From the NCBI GenBank assembly GCA_017550535.1, contig JAFZOS010000012.1, positions 1-51,072 of the forward strand: DNA of 51,072 nt, written 5' to 3'. Of this stretch, positions 14,475 to 20,568 are shown in pieces; position 1 is the stretch's first letter; each line of letters opens with the position of its first letter. The notes beneath the pieces were generated by a model, which was given only the letters and a program-made list of their open reading frames with translations, made no database searches and was not told where the DNA came from. The position numbers were made by a program, and so were the translations under genes. The stretch is from Lachnospiraceae bacterium (GTDB taxonomy: Bacteria > Bacillota > Clostridia > Lachnospirales > Lachnospiraceae).

Positions 14475-15704
14475 ATGAACAAGGAATTATTGGAAGCGCT
14501 CGATTCGCTGGAAAAGGAAAAGGAGATAAGCAAGGAGTCGATATTTGACGCCATCGAGAATTCCCTTATCCAGGCATGTAAGAATCACTTCGGCAAGGCC
14601 GACAACGCAAAGGTCGAGATCGATCGCGAGACGGGCGACTTCAGGGTGTATGCCGAGAAGACTGTGGTTGAGAGCAAGGACGATATTACGGATCCCGTTC
14701 TTGAGATCGCATTATGTGATGCGGTCCTCATCGATGAAGATGCAAAGCCGGGGGATGTCGTACAGGTTGAGATAAAGAGCAAGGAGTTCGGACGTATCGC
14801 GGCTACCAACGCCAAGAACGTTATCCTCCAGAAGATACGTGAGGAGGAGCGTGCGGTACTTTATAACCAGTTCTACGGCAAGGAAAGGGATGTCGTTACC
14901 GGTATCGTTCAGCGTTATGTCGGCAGGAACATAAGCATCGACCTTGGCAAGGCCGACGCACTTCTTTCCGAGAACGAGCAGGTAAAGTCGGAGCACCTGC
15001 GTCCTACCGACCGCGTAAAGGTATATATCTACGAGGTTAAGGATACGACCAAGGGTCCCAAGATCCTTGTAAGCCGTACCCATCCCGAGCTTGTTAAGAA
15101 GCTCTTTGAATCTGAGGTTACTGAAGTACGTGACGGTACCGTTGAGATAAAGGCCATCGCCCGTGAGGCAGGAAGCCGTACCAAGATCGCGGTATGGAGC
15201 AATAATCCCGATGTCGATCCCGTGGGTGCCTGCGTCGGAATGAACGGTTCACGTGTCAATGCGGTAGTTGATGAACTCCGCGGTGAGAAGATAGATATCA
15301 TCTGCTGGGATGAGAATCCCGGTATCCTTATAGAAAATGCTCTTTCACCCGCCAAGGTGGTATTCGTTATCGCCGACGGCGATGAAAAGACGGCCAAGGT
15401 TGTCGTTCCCGATACGCAGCTGTCGCTTGCGATCGGTAAGGAAGGGCAGAATGCAAGGCTCGCAGCGCGTCTTACAGGCTTTAAGATCGACATCAAGTCC
15501 GAGACCCAGGCCAAGGATGCACCCGGCTTCCGTCTTGAGGACTACTACGATGACGAGGAAGAATACTACGAGGATGATTATGACGGTGAATATCCCGAGG
15601 ATGAATACCTTGATCCCGATGATGTCGAGGAGCAGTACGCTGAGGATGAGGGCGAAGAGGAGGTTGAATACCTCGAGGTTGATGATACGCCCGAAGGTGA
15701 GTGA
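14475..15704 (+). CDS. nusA: Transcription termination/antitermination factor NusA
   Basis: 409 residues: N-terminal RNA-polymerase-binding domain (about 1-120), S1 domain (about 135-200), and two KH domains (about 230-345) including DPVGACVGMNGSRV and LAIGKEGQNARLAARLTG. NusA modulates pausing, termination and rRNA antitermination. The last 50 residues (about 358-409) are almost purely acidic, rich in Asp, Glu and Tyr, an extension beyond the core Firmicute protein. TTCAGGAGGAATGAA gives a strong ribosome binding site. The next start lies three bases after the stop. Confidence 0.96.
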   Translation: MNKELLEALDSLEKEKEISKESIFDAIENSLIQACKNHFGKADNAKVEIDRETGDFRVYAEKTVVESKDDITDPVLEIALCDAVLIDEDAKPGDVVQVEIKSKEFGRIAATNAKNVILQKIREEERAVLYNQFYGKERDVVTGIVQRYVGRNISIDLGKADALLSENEQVKSEHLRPTDRVKVYIYEVKDTTKGPKILVSRTHPELVKKLFESEVTEVRDGTVEIKAIAREAGSRTKIAVWSNNPDVDPVGACVGMNGSRVNAVVDELRGEKIDIICWDENPGILIENALSPAKVVFVIADGDEKTAKVVVPDTQLSLAIGKEGQNARLAARLTGFKIDIKSETQAKDAPGFRLEDYYDDEEEYYEDDYDGEYPEDEYLDPDDVEEQYAEDEGEEEVEYLEVDDTPEGE

Positions 15705-15707
15705 TAT

Positions 15708-16001
15708 TTGAAGCCGGATGTTGAACATAAGGATAAGCGGATCCCTATGAGGACCTGTATAGGCTGTAACGGTATAAGGCCAAAGCAGGAGCTTTTAAGG
15801 ATAGTAAGGCAGGAGGACGGAACCGTTTCTTTGGATCCTCCTGGTACCTTAAACGGCAGGGGAGCTTATCTTTGCAGGAACTTAAACTGTTTTGATCTTG
15901 CCGTAAAAAGGAAGGGCTTTGCCAGGACTTTCAAAGCCGCGATACCGGGTGATGAAACGGCAGGGCTGCGTGACGGATTTGAAAGGGCGATAAGCTCATA
16001 A
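15708..16001 (+). CDS. ylxR: YlxR family RNA-binding protein (DUF448)
   Basis: 97 residues with the family marks MRTCIGCNGIRPKQELLRIVR and LNGRGAYLCRNLNC; the GRGAYLC segment is the YlxR signature. YlxR proteins are small nucleic-acid-binding proteins, reported to affect transcription in Bacillus and RnpA/RNase P activity in some species. The start is TTG at 15708, three bases after nusA, with AAGGTGAG upstream in the nusA end. Part of the infB operon. Confidence 0.92.
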   Translation: MKPDVEHKDKRIPMRTCIGCNGIRPKQELLRIVRQEDGTVSLDPPGTLNGRGAYLCRNLNCFDLAVKRKGFARTFKAAIPGDETAGLRDGFERAISS

Positions 16002-16007
16002 GGAGAT

Positions 16008-16337
16008 ATGATGAAGCCCGATAAGGCATTGCAGATGCTTGGCATGGCACAACGTGCGGGAGCTGTTAAAAGCGGTGAGTTCATGACCGAAAACAGCGTC
16101 AAAGACGGGAGTGCATACCTGGTAGTCGTTGCATCCGATTCGTCGGATAATACGAGGAAACAGTTTACAAATATGTGTGAATACTATGATGTCCCCTTAA
16201 GGTTCTATTCGGATAAGGAGGCACTGGGACATTGTATAGGCAAGGAATTTCGGGCGTCCCTTGCGGTAACGAACGAAGGACTTGCGGATAAGATAATGAG
16301 TATCATGGACCAAGGTCAGAAAGACGAGGTGTTATAG
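16008..16337 (+). CDS. ylxQ: L7Ae-family ribosomal protein YlxQ
   Basis: About 108 residues. [17 protein letters not shown] and [16 protein letters not shown] fit the L7Ae/L30e fold that binds kink-turn RNA. Two ATG codons are adjacent at 16008 and 16011; AGGAG at 16001-16005 suits the second better (5-base spacing). It sits between ylxR and infB as in Bacillus subtilis, where the product (RplGA) is ribosome-associated. Function here is by homology. Confidence 0.9.
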
Positions 16338-16338
16338 G

Positions 16339-19218
16339 TTGGCTAAAATGAGGATATACGAATTTGCGAAAGAACTTGATGTGACGGGAAAGGATATAGT
16401 TGCCGCACTCGAGGAACTGGGCGAGGGTACCAAAACGGCATCGTCGTCTATTGATGATGACCTGCAGGAAAAGGTAAGGGCAAAGATAAAGGGCGGAGCC
16501 GTTAAGGAAAAGAAACCCGCAGCCGCAAAGTCAGGGGCCGTAAAAGCCAAGGCCGAAAAAGCGGAAGCCGAACCTGAAAGAGCCGAAAAAAAGCCGGCCG
16601 AGAAGAAAGCAGGTGAAACAAAGGAAGCAAAAGCCGCAGCACCCGCAAAAGCAGCTCCGGCAAAAGCAGCACCGGCAGCCAGGAGTGCGGAGGAGAAGGC
16701 TCCGGAAGAAGCACCCGTCAGGAAAAAGAAACCTAACATCATCATCGTTAACAGGCATAACACCCAGGGAGGTACTGCAGCAAGGCCCGGTCAGCCTCAG
16801 GGTCAGCGCGGCGGCGCGCAGGGTCAGGGCAGGCCGCAGGGTTCAAGGCCCGGCAGCAATACGTTTGTCCGTCCGGCACAGCGGCTCATAAAGCCCAATG
16901 TTCCAAGGACCGCCAATGTTATGATGAACCGTGATGATGACGTGATCGTAAAGCCGGCGGAAGAAAAGAAGGTCGAGCGTAAAGCAGCAGCGGCACCGGA
17001 ACCGGTAACACAGGTCGGAGGAGATAATGAGCAGGCAGCAGTTAACACTGATAGAGAAAACGTTCAAAAAACTCAGGAAAGCGTACAAGGCGGTACTCGT
17101 CCTAACAGGGCTGGTGGCAATAGTGCTGACCGTACTGGAAGAACTTTCGAACGTCGGGAAAAGACGGGCGAAACAGGACGTCCTTCCTATGGACGCGACG
17201 GACAGGGAAGGGACAGCCGACAGGGAGCAGGCCGAGGCGGACGAGACAACTTAAGGAGCGGTATAAGCATTGCCTTCGGTTCTGATCAGAAGGGCGCAGG
17301 CAAGGACAACCGCCGCGATGATTCCAAGAAGAGCAGGGATAAGAACCGTAAGGATCAAAGCTACCAGAATGAGGACGGCTTCAGGGGCGGCAAACAGGTA
17401 AGGGGCAGCAAGGCCGGCAAGTTCATAAAGCCCGAAAAGCCTGCTGAGGTTAAGGAAGAGGAGAAGATCAAGGTAATAACCCTTCCTGAAAGCCTTACCA
17501 TAAAGGAGCTGGCCGAGAAGATGAAGGTCCAGCCCGCAGTCATAATAAAGAAACTGTTCCTTCAGGGCAAGGTTGTTACCGTTAATCAGGAGATAACCTA
17601 CGAGCAGGCCGAGGAGATCGCGGTCGAGTTCGAGATACTTTGCGAGAAGGAAGTAGTAGTAGACGTAATAGAGGAACTGTTAAAGGAAGAGGAAGAAGAT
17701 ACAAGCAAGATGGTTAAGCGTCCGCCCGTTATCTGCGTAATGGGACACGTTGACCACGGTAAAACCTCGCTGCTTGATTCTATAAGGAAGACTCATGTGA
17801 TCGACCGCGAAGCCGGCGGTATCACACAGCACATCGGTGCTTATGTGGTTAAGGTCGGAGACCAGAAGATCACCTTCCTCGATACGCCGGGTCATGAGGC
17901 GTTCACGGCTATGCGTATGCGAGGCGCCAATTCGACGGATATCGCCATCCTTGTTGTTGCTGCGGATGACGGTGTTATGCCGCAGACCATCGAGGCTATA
18001 AACCATGCGAAGGCAGCAGGCATCGAGATCATCGTTGCCGTAAACAAGATAGATAAACCGAGTGCCAACATAGACAGGGTTAAGCAGGAGCTTTCCGAAT
18101 ACGAACTGATCCCCGAGGACTGGGGCGGAAGTACTGTATTTGCTCCGGTTTCCGCAAAGACAGGCGAAGGCATCGACAACCTGCTTGAAATGATCCTGCT
18201 TACGGCCGATATTCTCGAGCTTAAGGCAGATCCCAAGCGTAAGGCCCGTGGTCTTGTCATCGAGGCACAGCTTGATAAGGGACGCGGTCCCGTTGCCACC
18301 GTGCTCGTTCAGAAGGGTACACTTAAGGTGGGTGACTTTATCGCCGCAGGCGCATGCTACGGTAAGGTCCGCGCCATGATAGACGACAAGGGAAGGCGCG
18401 TCAAGGAGGCAGGTCCTTCGACACCCGTTGAGATACTCGGACTTAACGATGTTCCGAATGCAGGTGAGATATTCGTATCTCCCGATAATGATAAGGAAGC
18501 CAAGAATTTCGCACAGACCTTCATCTCACAGAACAAGGTCAAGCTGCTTGACGATACCAAGAACAAGATGTCTCTTGATGATCTGTTCACCCAGATCCAG
18601 GAAGGCAACCTTAAGGAATTGAACCTTATCATCAAGGCCGACGTTCAGGGTTCTGTCGAGGCTGTCAAGGAAAGCCTTGTCAAGCTTACGAACGAGGAAG
18701 TTGTTGTCAAGGTCATCCACGGCGGCGTAGGTGCGATAAACGAATCGGATGTTGTTCTTGCTTCGGCTTCGAATGCGATAATCATAGGCTTCAATGTCCG
18801 CCCCGATGCAACGGCCAAGAACATAGCCGAGACCGAAGGCGTGGATATAAGGCTTTACAATGTCATCTACAAGGCTATCGAGGATGTGGAAGCCGCAATG
18901 AAGGGAATGCTCGATCCGGTATTCGAGGAGAAGGTGATCGGTCATGCGGAGATAAGGCAGATATTCAAGGCTTCGGGCATAGGCAATATCGCCGGTTCCT
19001 ATGTGCTTGACGGTACATTCGAGCGCGGCTGCCAGGTACGCATCACCCATGAGGGCGAGCAGATCTTCGAAGGCAACCTTGCATCCCTTAAGAGGTTTAA
19101 GGACGATGTCAAGGAAGTAAAGGCAGGCTTCGAGTGCGGTCTCGTATTTGAGGATTTCAATGACTTTGCCGAGCTTGACATAGTTGAAGCATACAAGATG
19201 GTAGAGGTACCCAGATAG
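16339..19218 (+). CDS. infB: Translation initiation factor IF-2
   Basis: 959 residues, starting with TTG one base after ylxQ ([13 protein letters not shown]). An N-terminal IF2-N domain (about 1-55) is followed by a very long Ala/Lys/Pro- and Gly/Arg-rich linker (about 56-375), a second IF2-N domain (about 378-430), the G domain with GHVDHGKTS at 469-477, DTPGHEAF and NKID, and the C-terminal beta barrels that bind initiator tRNA. IF-2 joins fMet-tRNA and the ribosomal subunits. The linker between about 230 and 305 has odd codon choice (five ACT, three CGA, two AGA) because an alternative frame overlaps it (17027-17254). Confidence 0.97.
17027..17254 (+). CDS. Candidate overlapping small membrane protein inside infB (+1 frame)
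   Basis: A 75-codon frame, one base out of register with infB, begins at ATG 17027 and ends at TAA 17252. Its ribosome binding site GGAGGAG (17017-17023) is as good as any in the window, with 5 bases between GGAGG and the ATG. The predicted product has a basic N-terminus ([11 protein letters not shown]), one strongly hydrophobic stretch (about 22-40, [15 protein letters not shown]) and an acidic tail, so it would be a one-helix membrane protein. Codons in this frame (AGG, CTG, GTA, ACA, GAG, AAG) look like those of the neighbours, whereas the infB frame here uses otherwise rare ones. It lies in the disordered IF-2 linker, where sequence is least constrained. Expression is unproven; an imported segment that kept infB open is the main alternative. 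Confidence 0.35.
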
Positions 19219-19227
19219 GAAACAACA

Positions 19228-19596
19228 ATGCGAAAGAACAGTATAAAAAACACAAGGATAAACAGCGAGGTCCAGCGTGAACTCGCGAACCTGATAAGGT
19301 CCGAGATCAAGGATCCCAGGGTGGGTCCAATGACCTGCGTTACCGATGTTGAAGTGGCGCCGGACCTTAAAACATGCAAGGTTTGGATATCAACCCTCGG
19401 CGATGACGAAGCCAGGGAGGGTACCCTTAAGGGCCTTAAGAATGCCGAAGGTTTCCTTCGCAGCCAGCTTGCGAAGAACTTAAACCTTCGCAACACTCCG
19501 GAGCTCCGCTTCATTTCCGATACTTCGATCGAATACGGAATGAAGATGAACAAGCTGCTGGATGACGTTAAGGGCCCTGAAGATGAAGAATCATAA
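19228..19596 (+). CDS. rbfA: Ribosome-binding factor A
   Basis: 122 residues, normal for RbfA. RINSEVQRELANLIRSEIKDPR(V)G and ISTLGDDEAREGTLKGL follow the family, and LRNTPELRFISDTSIEYG is the conserved KH-like C-terminal block. RbfA acts in late 16S rRNA 5'-end processing and 30S maturation. It follows infB by 9 bases and precedes nrnA by 12, inside the same operon. Confidence 0.95.
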   Translation: MRKNSIKNTRINSEVQRELANLIRSEIKDPRVGPMTCVTDVEVAPDLKTCKVWISTLGDDEAREGTLKGLKNAEGFLRSQLAKNLNLRNTPELRFISDTSIEYGMKMNKLLDDVKGPEDEES

Positions 19597-19608
19597 AAGG
19601 AAGATCAA

Positions 19609-20568
19609 ATGAATCTGTTAAAAGAAGCAGGCAGTCCGAAGACCATAGGGATCACGGGTCACATAAGGCCTGACGGCGATTGCGTCGGTGCGGTGTTCGG
19701 AACCTATGCCTATCTTAAAAATGTATATAAGGATGCCGATATAAGGTTATTTTTGGAGCAGCCCCCGGCGATATATTCATTCCTTAAGGGTTATGACAAG
19801 GTTGATACGACCTTCGCATATCCCGGGCAGTTCGATGTATTTATAGCGCTTGATTCTGCCGATATAGGACGGATCGGAGATGCGGATAAGCTGTTCCTCG
19901 GAGCGAAAAAGTCGATACTTATAGATCATCATATAAGCAATAACGGGTTTGGTGACGTATTCTGCGTTGAACCCGAGGCGAGCTCGACCTGCGAGATACT
20001 GACACGCCTGTTTGAGGATGAATACATGGACGTTGATGTGGCGAAGGCTCTGTATACCGGCATCGCCCATGACACCGGAGTTTTCCGCTACAGCTGTACG
20101 GGGCCCGATACATTCGCGGCTCTTCAGAAGCTCGTTGCCTATGATTTTGACGGCTCAAAGATAACCGATGAGACGTTTTATCAGAAGACTTATGTGCAGA
20201 ATCAGCTGCTCGGGCGCACCCTCCTTGAGAGCATACTCTTCATGGACGGCAGGTGCATCGCGGGTTACATTGACAGGAAGGCGATGGAATTCTATGAGGC
20301 GGAGTCCTCGGATTTTGAGGGGATCGTGAACCAGCTTCAGATGACCAAGGGTGTTGAAGTCGCGATATTCATGTACGAAACGGGAACTCTTGAATTCAAG
20401 GTGAGCATGCGCAGCAACGGTAAGGTCAACGTGGCCGAGGTCTCATCGTACTTCGGCGGAGGCGGCCATGTACGCGCAGCGGGCTGCAACATGAACGGAA
20501 CCTTCCATGATGTACTGAATAACTTAAGCCTGCACATAGAAAAGCAGTTGGAGTCGTTTGATCAATAA
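19609..20568 (+). CDS. nrnA: DHH-family oligoribonuclease / pAp phosphatase NrnA
   Basis: 319 residues. The DHH domain (about 1-170) has GHIRPDGDCVGA, LDSADIGRIG and ILIDHHISN with the metal ligands. The DHHA1 domain (about 200-319) ends in YFGGGGHVRAAGC. NrnA degrades nanoRNAs of two to five nucleotides and dephosphorylates pAp in Firmicutes lacking Orn. The position between rbfA and truB is the usual one in Clostridia. GGAAGATCAA lies before the ATG. Confidence 0.93.
   Translation: MNLLKEAGSPKTIGITGHIRPDGDCVGAVFGTYAYLKNVYKDADIRLFLEQPPAIYSFLKGYDKVDTTFAYPGQFDVFIALDSADIGRIGDADKLFLGAKKSILIDHHISNNGFGDVFCVEPEASSTCEILTRLFEDEYMDVDVAKALYTGIAHDTGVFRYSCTGPDTFAALQKLVAYDFDGSKITDETFYQKTYVQNQLLGRTLLESILFMDGRCIAGYIDRKAMEFYEAESSDFEGIVNQLQMTKGVEVAIFMYETGTLEFKVSMRSNGKVNVAEVSSYFGGGGHVRAAGCNMNGTFHDVLNNLSLHIEKQLESFDQ

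Follow-up and report, generated by a model that had tools for sequence, protein, structure and literature searches.

Does the linker of a bacterial translation factor encode a second protein in another reading frame? The locus that raises this question lies in a stretch of 51,072 nucleotides from a member of the Lachnospiraceae, hereafter the window. Its infB gene, which encodes translation initiation factor IF-2, occupies positions 16339–19218 of the forward strand (959 codons as listed from a TTG start; full-length in relatives). The TTG sits two bases past the stop of an upstream ylxQ-like open reading frame (ORF) at 16008–16337; an ATG is found three codons downstream (TTG region 16339–16349), and Leu (TTG) at this position is also seen in several relatives.

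An earlier, sequence-only reading had proposed a 75-codon ORF shifted by +1 relative to infB. It is present at 17027–17254 (75 residues, ATG to TAA, stop included), beginning at infB codon 229. Lying entirely within infB, on the same strand and in another frame, it has the arrangement of an overprinted gene. The same reading placed GGAGGAG five bases before the ATG. That distance fits GGAGG (17017–17021), which ends 5 nt upstream, whereas GGAGGAG itself (17017–17023) ends 3 nt away. The basic-hydrophobic-acidic layout that it described can be seen: a basic helix (residues 10–21, 17054–17089), delimited by alignments and part of a predicted long helix; a hydrophobic, probably membrane-spanning segment (about residues 22–37, 17090–17137) with a hydropathy of 2.52 against a synonymous-null mean of 0.58; and an acidic/polar tail, of which positions 17168–17251 vary within the genus. 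AlphaFold2 models a single long helix over residues 4–53 of a 76-residue chain (mean pLDDT 78.8, pTM 0.44), and Foldseek returned no match to this model in the PDB at E ≤ 10.

What does the host frame look like over the same bases? As had been remarked, the infB frame here uses codons that are rare in the rest of the gene: ACT (5/77 against 3/882), CGA (3/77 against 1/882) and AGA (2/77 against 2/882). The further statement that the +1 frame chooses codons like the surrounding genes stands in part. Its mean log codon score of 0.090 exceeds those of the infB frame (−0.223) and the +2 frame (−0.408) in this segment, but falls below that of downstream infB (0.357). Of all 75-codon windows in infB, the one beginning at codon 235 is the least adapted, and it coincides with the nested segment.

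Selection on the nested frame

If the +1 frame encodes a protein, is that protein maintained among relatives? The window's own genus (the home genus) is represented by 37 genomes in our collection. The infB linker is readable in 33 of them, 32 analysed together plus G028; the other four fall outside the count, G005 and G019 having the 3' part of infB only and G030 and G035 giving no infB match. In all 33 the +1 frame reads as a basic helix and then a hydrophobic one, while the IF-2 linker encoded by the same bases diverges, AGSYSGAAGSAPGSTG being one extreme. The only invariant column is the Glu that follows the helix (Glu39, codon 17141–17143), present in 32/32 aligned sequences; G028 has an Asp near that position. 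Conservation of the three-part layout is thus partial: the two helices and about ten further residues are kept, but the acidic tail (about residues 48–75) is not. The sequence-only reading would have counted stops in relatives against the frame; the core is free of them in 32/32 genomes, but the variable C-terminal tail is shortened by stops in many.

These observations were set against a synonymous null, in which the IF-2 protein is held fixed, synonymous codons are drawn from the same gene and the +1 frame is then read. For the core of the window's genome, none of 2000 shuffles reached the observed +1 hydropathy. Across the home genus, 28 of the 32 cores exceed the null at P ≤ 0.01, P-values of related genomes being non-independent and only those of disjoint pairs independent. 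The four exceptions, L016 (P = 0.369), L018 (0.0275), L023 (0.0205) and L048 (0.084), have Asn-rich linkers, which are hydrophobic in +1 anyway. When the whole gene was scanned in +1 (z > 2.5 and H > 2), 26/32 core windows passed and 0/666 other infB windows did. As controls, the +2 frame gave 0/32 and 0/666; in the three reverse frames, 0/32, 5/32 and 0/32 core windows passed, the five in reverse-strand frame −1, as did 2/666, 0/666 and 4/666 of the windows elsewhere.

Substitution rates between 15 disjoint close pairs carry the imprint of the second frame. At infB codon positions 1, 2 and 3 they are 0.322, 0.263 and 0.247 in the core, against 0.307, 0.298 and 0.558 in the upstream linker, 0.109, 0.116 and 0.421 in the downstream linker and 0.041, 0.017 and 0.415 in the infB domains. 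The third position of infB doubles as the second position in +1 and is the slowest in the core only; the first position, third in +1, is the fastest class there. At identical IF-2 residues, synonymously changed codons number 51/332 (15%) in the core and 38–47% elsewhere: 493/1057 in the upstream linker, 351/936 in the downstream linker and 3154/7587 in the domains (Fisher p = 2e-26, 1e-14 and 7e-24, respectively). Synonymous variability, whose normality would have spoken against the frame, is therefore cut in the core.

Does the same hold in another genus? We examined g151, the genus of G190, which has 31 genomes. The analysis covers 28 infB loci that include the linker; it is missing from one locus (L213), and two genomes gave no match. 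The +1 ORF is visible by eye in 28/28. Of the 26 loci that could be anchored automatically, none has a stop, 25 exceed the null at the 0.05 level and 21 do so at 0.01. In 13 disjoint pairs, synonymous changes amount to 65/456 in the core against 502/1709, 317/1188 and 1775/5987 elsewhere, that is, 14% against 27–30% (p = 1e-11, 4e-8 and 1e-13). In 24/32 home-genus and 21/27 g151 genomes, the lowest codon adaptation of the infB frame falls exactly on the core. Purifying selection on the nested frame, beyond the constraint exerted by the host frame, was thus found in the home genus and replicated in g151, and the proposal of overprinting in the IF-2 linker is favoured by comparative tests in both. 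From these comparisons, the nested frame is very probably coding and under selection.

The putative start site

How would such a frame be translated? We scanned for GGAGG 4–10 nt ahead of a start codon and took the expectation from synonymous shuffles. With ATG, GTG and TTG as starts, a pair is found in 7/32 home-genus genomes against 0.9 expected, GGAGG in these seven lying 5–6 nt ahead of ATG. When AT[CA] is allowed, the count rises to 25/32 against 3.8 expected: 18 of the 32 genomes have ATC (12) or ATA (6) instead of ATG, all exactly 8 nt after GGAGG. In g151 the ATG is conserved and stands exactly 8 nt after GGAGG in 24/27 loci (7.0 expected), the very spacing of the home-genus ATC and ATA. 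From this fixed spacing and the enrichment over shuffles we infer, with good reason, initiation at AUC or AUA in those 18 home-genus genomes. A recent E. coli study accepted seven start codons, AUA and AUC among them, according to the accessible part of that paper (PMC12350097).

Loss of the ATG or of its Shine-Dalgarno sequence in close relatives had also been named as evidence against the nested frame. The ATG is indeed lost even in close relatives (L012–L014), but ATC stands there 8 nt after GGAGG. In a 13-genome sub-clade (within L025–L038), synonymous variation of infB ends abruptly at CAG GGA GGC, the Shine-Dalgarno core; over the infB codons for QGGDKDRLR, AT[CA] follows that core at a fixed spacing. 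A ribosome-binding site and start of its own accompany the nested frame except in 7/32 home-genus and 3/27 g151 genomes. In those seven home-genus genomes the scan found no GGAGG-linked start; weaker candidates there are ATG (L015, L016, L018, L021 and L023) or GTG (L017 and L024). A +1-frame stop lies directly ahead of the ATG in three g151 loci (L189, L198 and L212) and one codon ahead of it in L015, which argues for independent initiation. It is quite probable, on this evidence, that the product is made by internal initiation on the infB mRNA.

Are there other ways to account for the locus? Programmed +1 frameshifting out of infB would fuse the IF-2 N-terminal domain to the membrane helix. 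The frame is invariably +1, as this would require, the frameshift of prfB likewise has a Shine-Dalgarno-like site ahead of its shift site, and in some of the ATC/ATA genomes re-pairing on AAA|G would be feasible. Yet the stops in L015, L189, L198 and L212 intervene just ahead of the start, the distance from GGAGG to the start is fixed at 8 nt in 18/18 ATC/ATA cases and in 24/24 scan-positive g151 genomes, and no re-pairing codon is common to the ATC/ATA group, which has AAA, CGA or AGA there. Neither a conserved slippery codon nor a +1 frame continuous from a shift site was found, and we consider frameshifting very unlikely. The GGAGG might instead serve an in-frame, shorter IF-2, for which there is precedent in E. 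coli infB (PMC12350097 and PMC11005335, in the parts accessible), but in the window no in-frame ATG, GTG or TTG occurs within 15 infB codons after GGAGG. With no in-frame start soon after the Shine-Dalgarno site there, such an isoform is an exceedingly improbable explanation.

Synonymous constraint alone does not separate selection on RNA from selection on protein, so that a structure or a regulatory or processing site in the RNA might be what is conserved, the open +1 frame being a side effect. Against this, the first positions of infB, the silent thirds of the +1 frame, still form the fastest class in the core; the hydropathy of the +1 peptide is kept across fully diverged DNA; and no Rfam match occurs in 15700–19700 at E ≤ 1. 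We judge an RNA element highly unlikely. Could the ORF be an accident of Gly/Asn/Ser-rich IF-2 linkers, which read hydrophobic in +1? Asn-rich linkers do have a high null mean (2.18 in L016, 1.56 in L018), and many +1 maxima in other genera are ordinary (e.g. L118, H = 3.67, P = 0.217). But the majority of genomes exceed the null by far, and two genera show a two- to threefold reduction in synonymous change, which makes chance extremely unlikely. The reading that we prefer, and hold to be very probable from the comparison of these sequences, is a functional gene in the infB linker, nested there in the +1 frame and expressed via internal initiation as a small membrane protein.

Distribution and origin

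How far does the nested gene extend? A profile of the home-genus proteins, run against 299 genomes of the family, matched the infB +1 frame of G314, from another genus (E = 2.7e-8), with weak infB +1 matches in G115 (E = 0.0945) and G153 (0.0138). A broader profile gave 15 matches at E < 1e-3 among 160 genera of the family. Fourteen fall in the +1 frame of infB. Of the genera concerned, ten had contributed rows to the profile; the other four (G042, G111, G058 and G134) had none there, although they had been noticed before the search. The fifteenth match (G053) lies outside infB. In an order-level profile search, 12/295 genomes matched at E ≤ 0.01. Six of these are infB +1 cases from the same family (G000, G534, G630, G600, G058 and G134), of which G534, G630 and G600 were new, and the six other loci are without the infB motif. 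No infB case outside the family appeared among these 295 genomes, and phage records gave no match.

Are the proteins of different genera homologous? The home-genus and other-genus proteins align in hhalign with a probability of 69%, a moderate link. A profile built without home-genus rows scores at least 8 bits in 13/32 home-genus +1 frames against 6/960 shuffles, with no +2 frame above 5 bits. In other genera, a motif-centred test gave P ≤ 0.05 in 11/33 loci for +1 against 1/33 for +2, with the motif picked after looking and 68/101 loci lacking it by pattern. A whole-linker test gave P ≤ 0.01 in 7/101 against 1/101, L051 being clipped at masked bases so that G314 was not fairly tested. In the genus of G105 (three genomes) third-position counts are mixed, one pair being without third-position suppression; the genera of G039 and G314 have one genome each in the collection. 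Homology of the home-genus and other-genus proteins is, from these alignments, supported but not proven.

A local HMM built from ten +1 ORFs of other genera was set aside, since synonymous shuffles of its own seeds reach 33 bits; conserved infB residues account in part for the MEGR-like C-terminal motif of other genera. In L086, L093, L181–L183 and others, an infB linker-end motif (about NGG-D/G-N-K/R-F) overlaps an EAMEGRTI-like +1 motif. Asn-rich linkers such as that of L118 (G156) give long +1 runs of Ile, Thr and Val with a hydropathy within the null, and are a trap for ORF-based searches for nested membrane proteins.

When did the nested gene arise? A tree of 69 infB domains (24 positive and 45 negative by label) explains the labels with 7 changes, where shuffles take 20 and none of 500 is as low; near-copies and shared linkers inflate this clustering. 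The negatives are the 45 of 85 whose infB is most like that of the window, 60 of the 80 intended regions being included. The labels are partly rough: G174 (E = 0.052, infB +1) and G160 (local P = 0.029 only, its genome-wide profile match lying elsewhere) count as positive. Thirty-eight negatives form one clade (support 100/98); the other seven, among the positives (G040, G194, G181, G230, G154, G161 and G186), may be losses or misses. The simplest reading of the tree would be one early origin in the family followed by losses. The disordered linker would have been overprinted once, early in the family, with later loss in a large sub-clade, and the nested gene is best read as old.

The predicted product and its meaning

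What might the protein be? We could match it to no known family. Pfam, NCBIfam and PHROGs gave no consistent match above curated cut-offs, only scattered weak ones: PgaD in 1/32 members (best E 1.1e-4 in NCBIfam, 3.5e-4 in Pfam), LapA_dom in 4/32 (0.0065), DUF4231 in 6/32 (0.048), a PHROG holin in 1/32 (0.043) and TIGR04570 at 15.6 bits against a cut-off of 50, the cut-off comparison resting on the first member. What it shares with these families is short hydrophobic helices.

Ribosomes would initiate within the infB message at the GGAGG site and produce a small single-pass membrane protein whose basic N-terminal helix leads into a single hydrophobic helix and then a short polar tail. By the positive-inside rule a basic N-terminus should stay inside, which predicts a cytoplasmic N-terminus and a polar tail outside. 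Output of the protein would be tied to the infB mRNA. We infer membrane insertion, like the single origin, from the sequences. As for its role, the likeliest guess is a small regulatory protein or an accessory subunit of a membrane complex, its dose tracking the capacity for translation initiation. IF-3 normally rejects starts of the AUC/AUA type. One tentative idea, which we think unlikely, is that the nested genes form an ancient family in Lachnospiraceae and that in one genus the start shifted from AUG to AUC/AUA, the 8-nt distance to a perfect Shine-Dalgarno core being kept, so that the product would report the state of initiation, as a sensor linking this capacity to the membrane.

How does this locus compare with those already described? 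Bacterial genes nested on the same strand are considered rare in the available part of PMC12350097, which presents comS within srfA of Bacillus subtilis as a well-documented case. There too a small protein is encoded in another frame on the same strand inside a larger gene. Unlike srfA, the host here is an essential translation factor and the product a predicted membrane protein; the nested infB frame is moreover followed through two genera by tests and, with the profile, through at least 14 of the 160 genera sampled. E. coli infB has internal in-frame starts that yield IF-2 isoforms (PMC12350097 and PMC11005335, as far as accessible). Initiation inside infB, here predicted from sequence, is common to both, but the nested start is +1 and its peptide unrelated, whereas the E. 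coli isoforms are in-frame, shorter forms of IF-2. The PIRT-Seq translation-reporter screen yielded 125 intragenic nested candidates in E. coli (PMC12350097, in its accessible part), which is expression evidence from one species; the nested infB ORF has comparative evidence of selection. Our literature search, largely confined to freely accessible papers, turned up none that describes an out-of-frame gene within infB.

The nested gene sits in an essential and intensively studied gene, with support for selection from two separate genera; annotation pipelines that discard genes inside genes would drop it. Its natural AUG and AUC/AUA starts, at a fixed spacing, offer a test set for non-AUG initiation in bacteria. 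The hypervariable linker of IF-2 can double as a coding region, which may account for some of its unusual codon choice.
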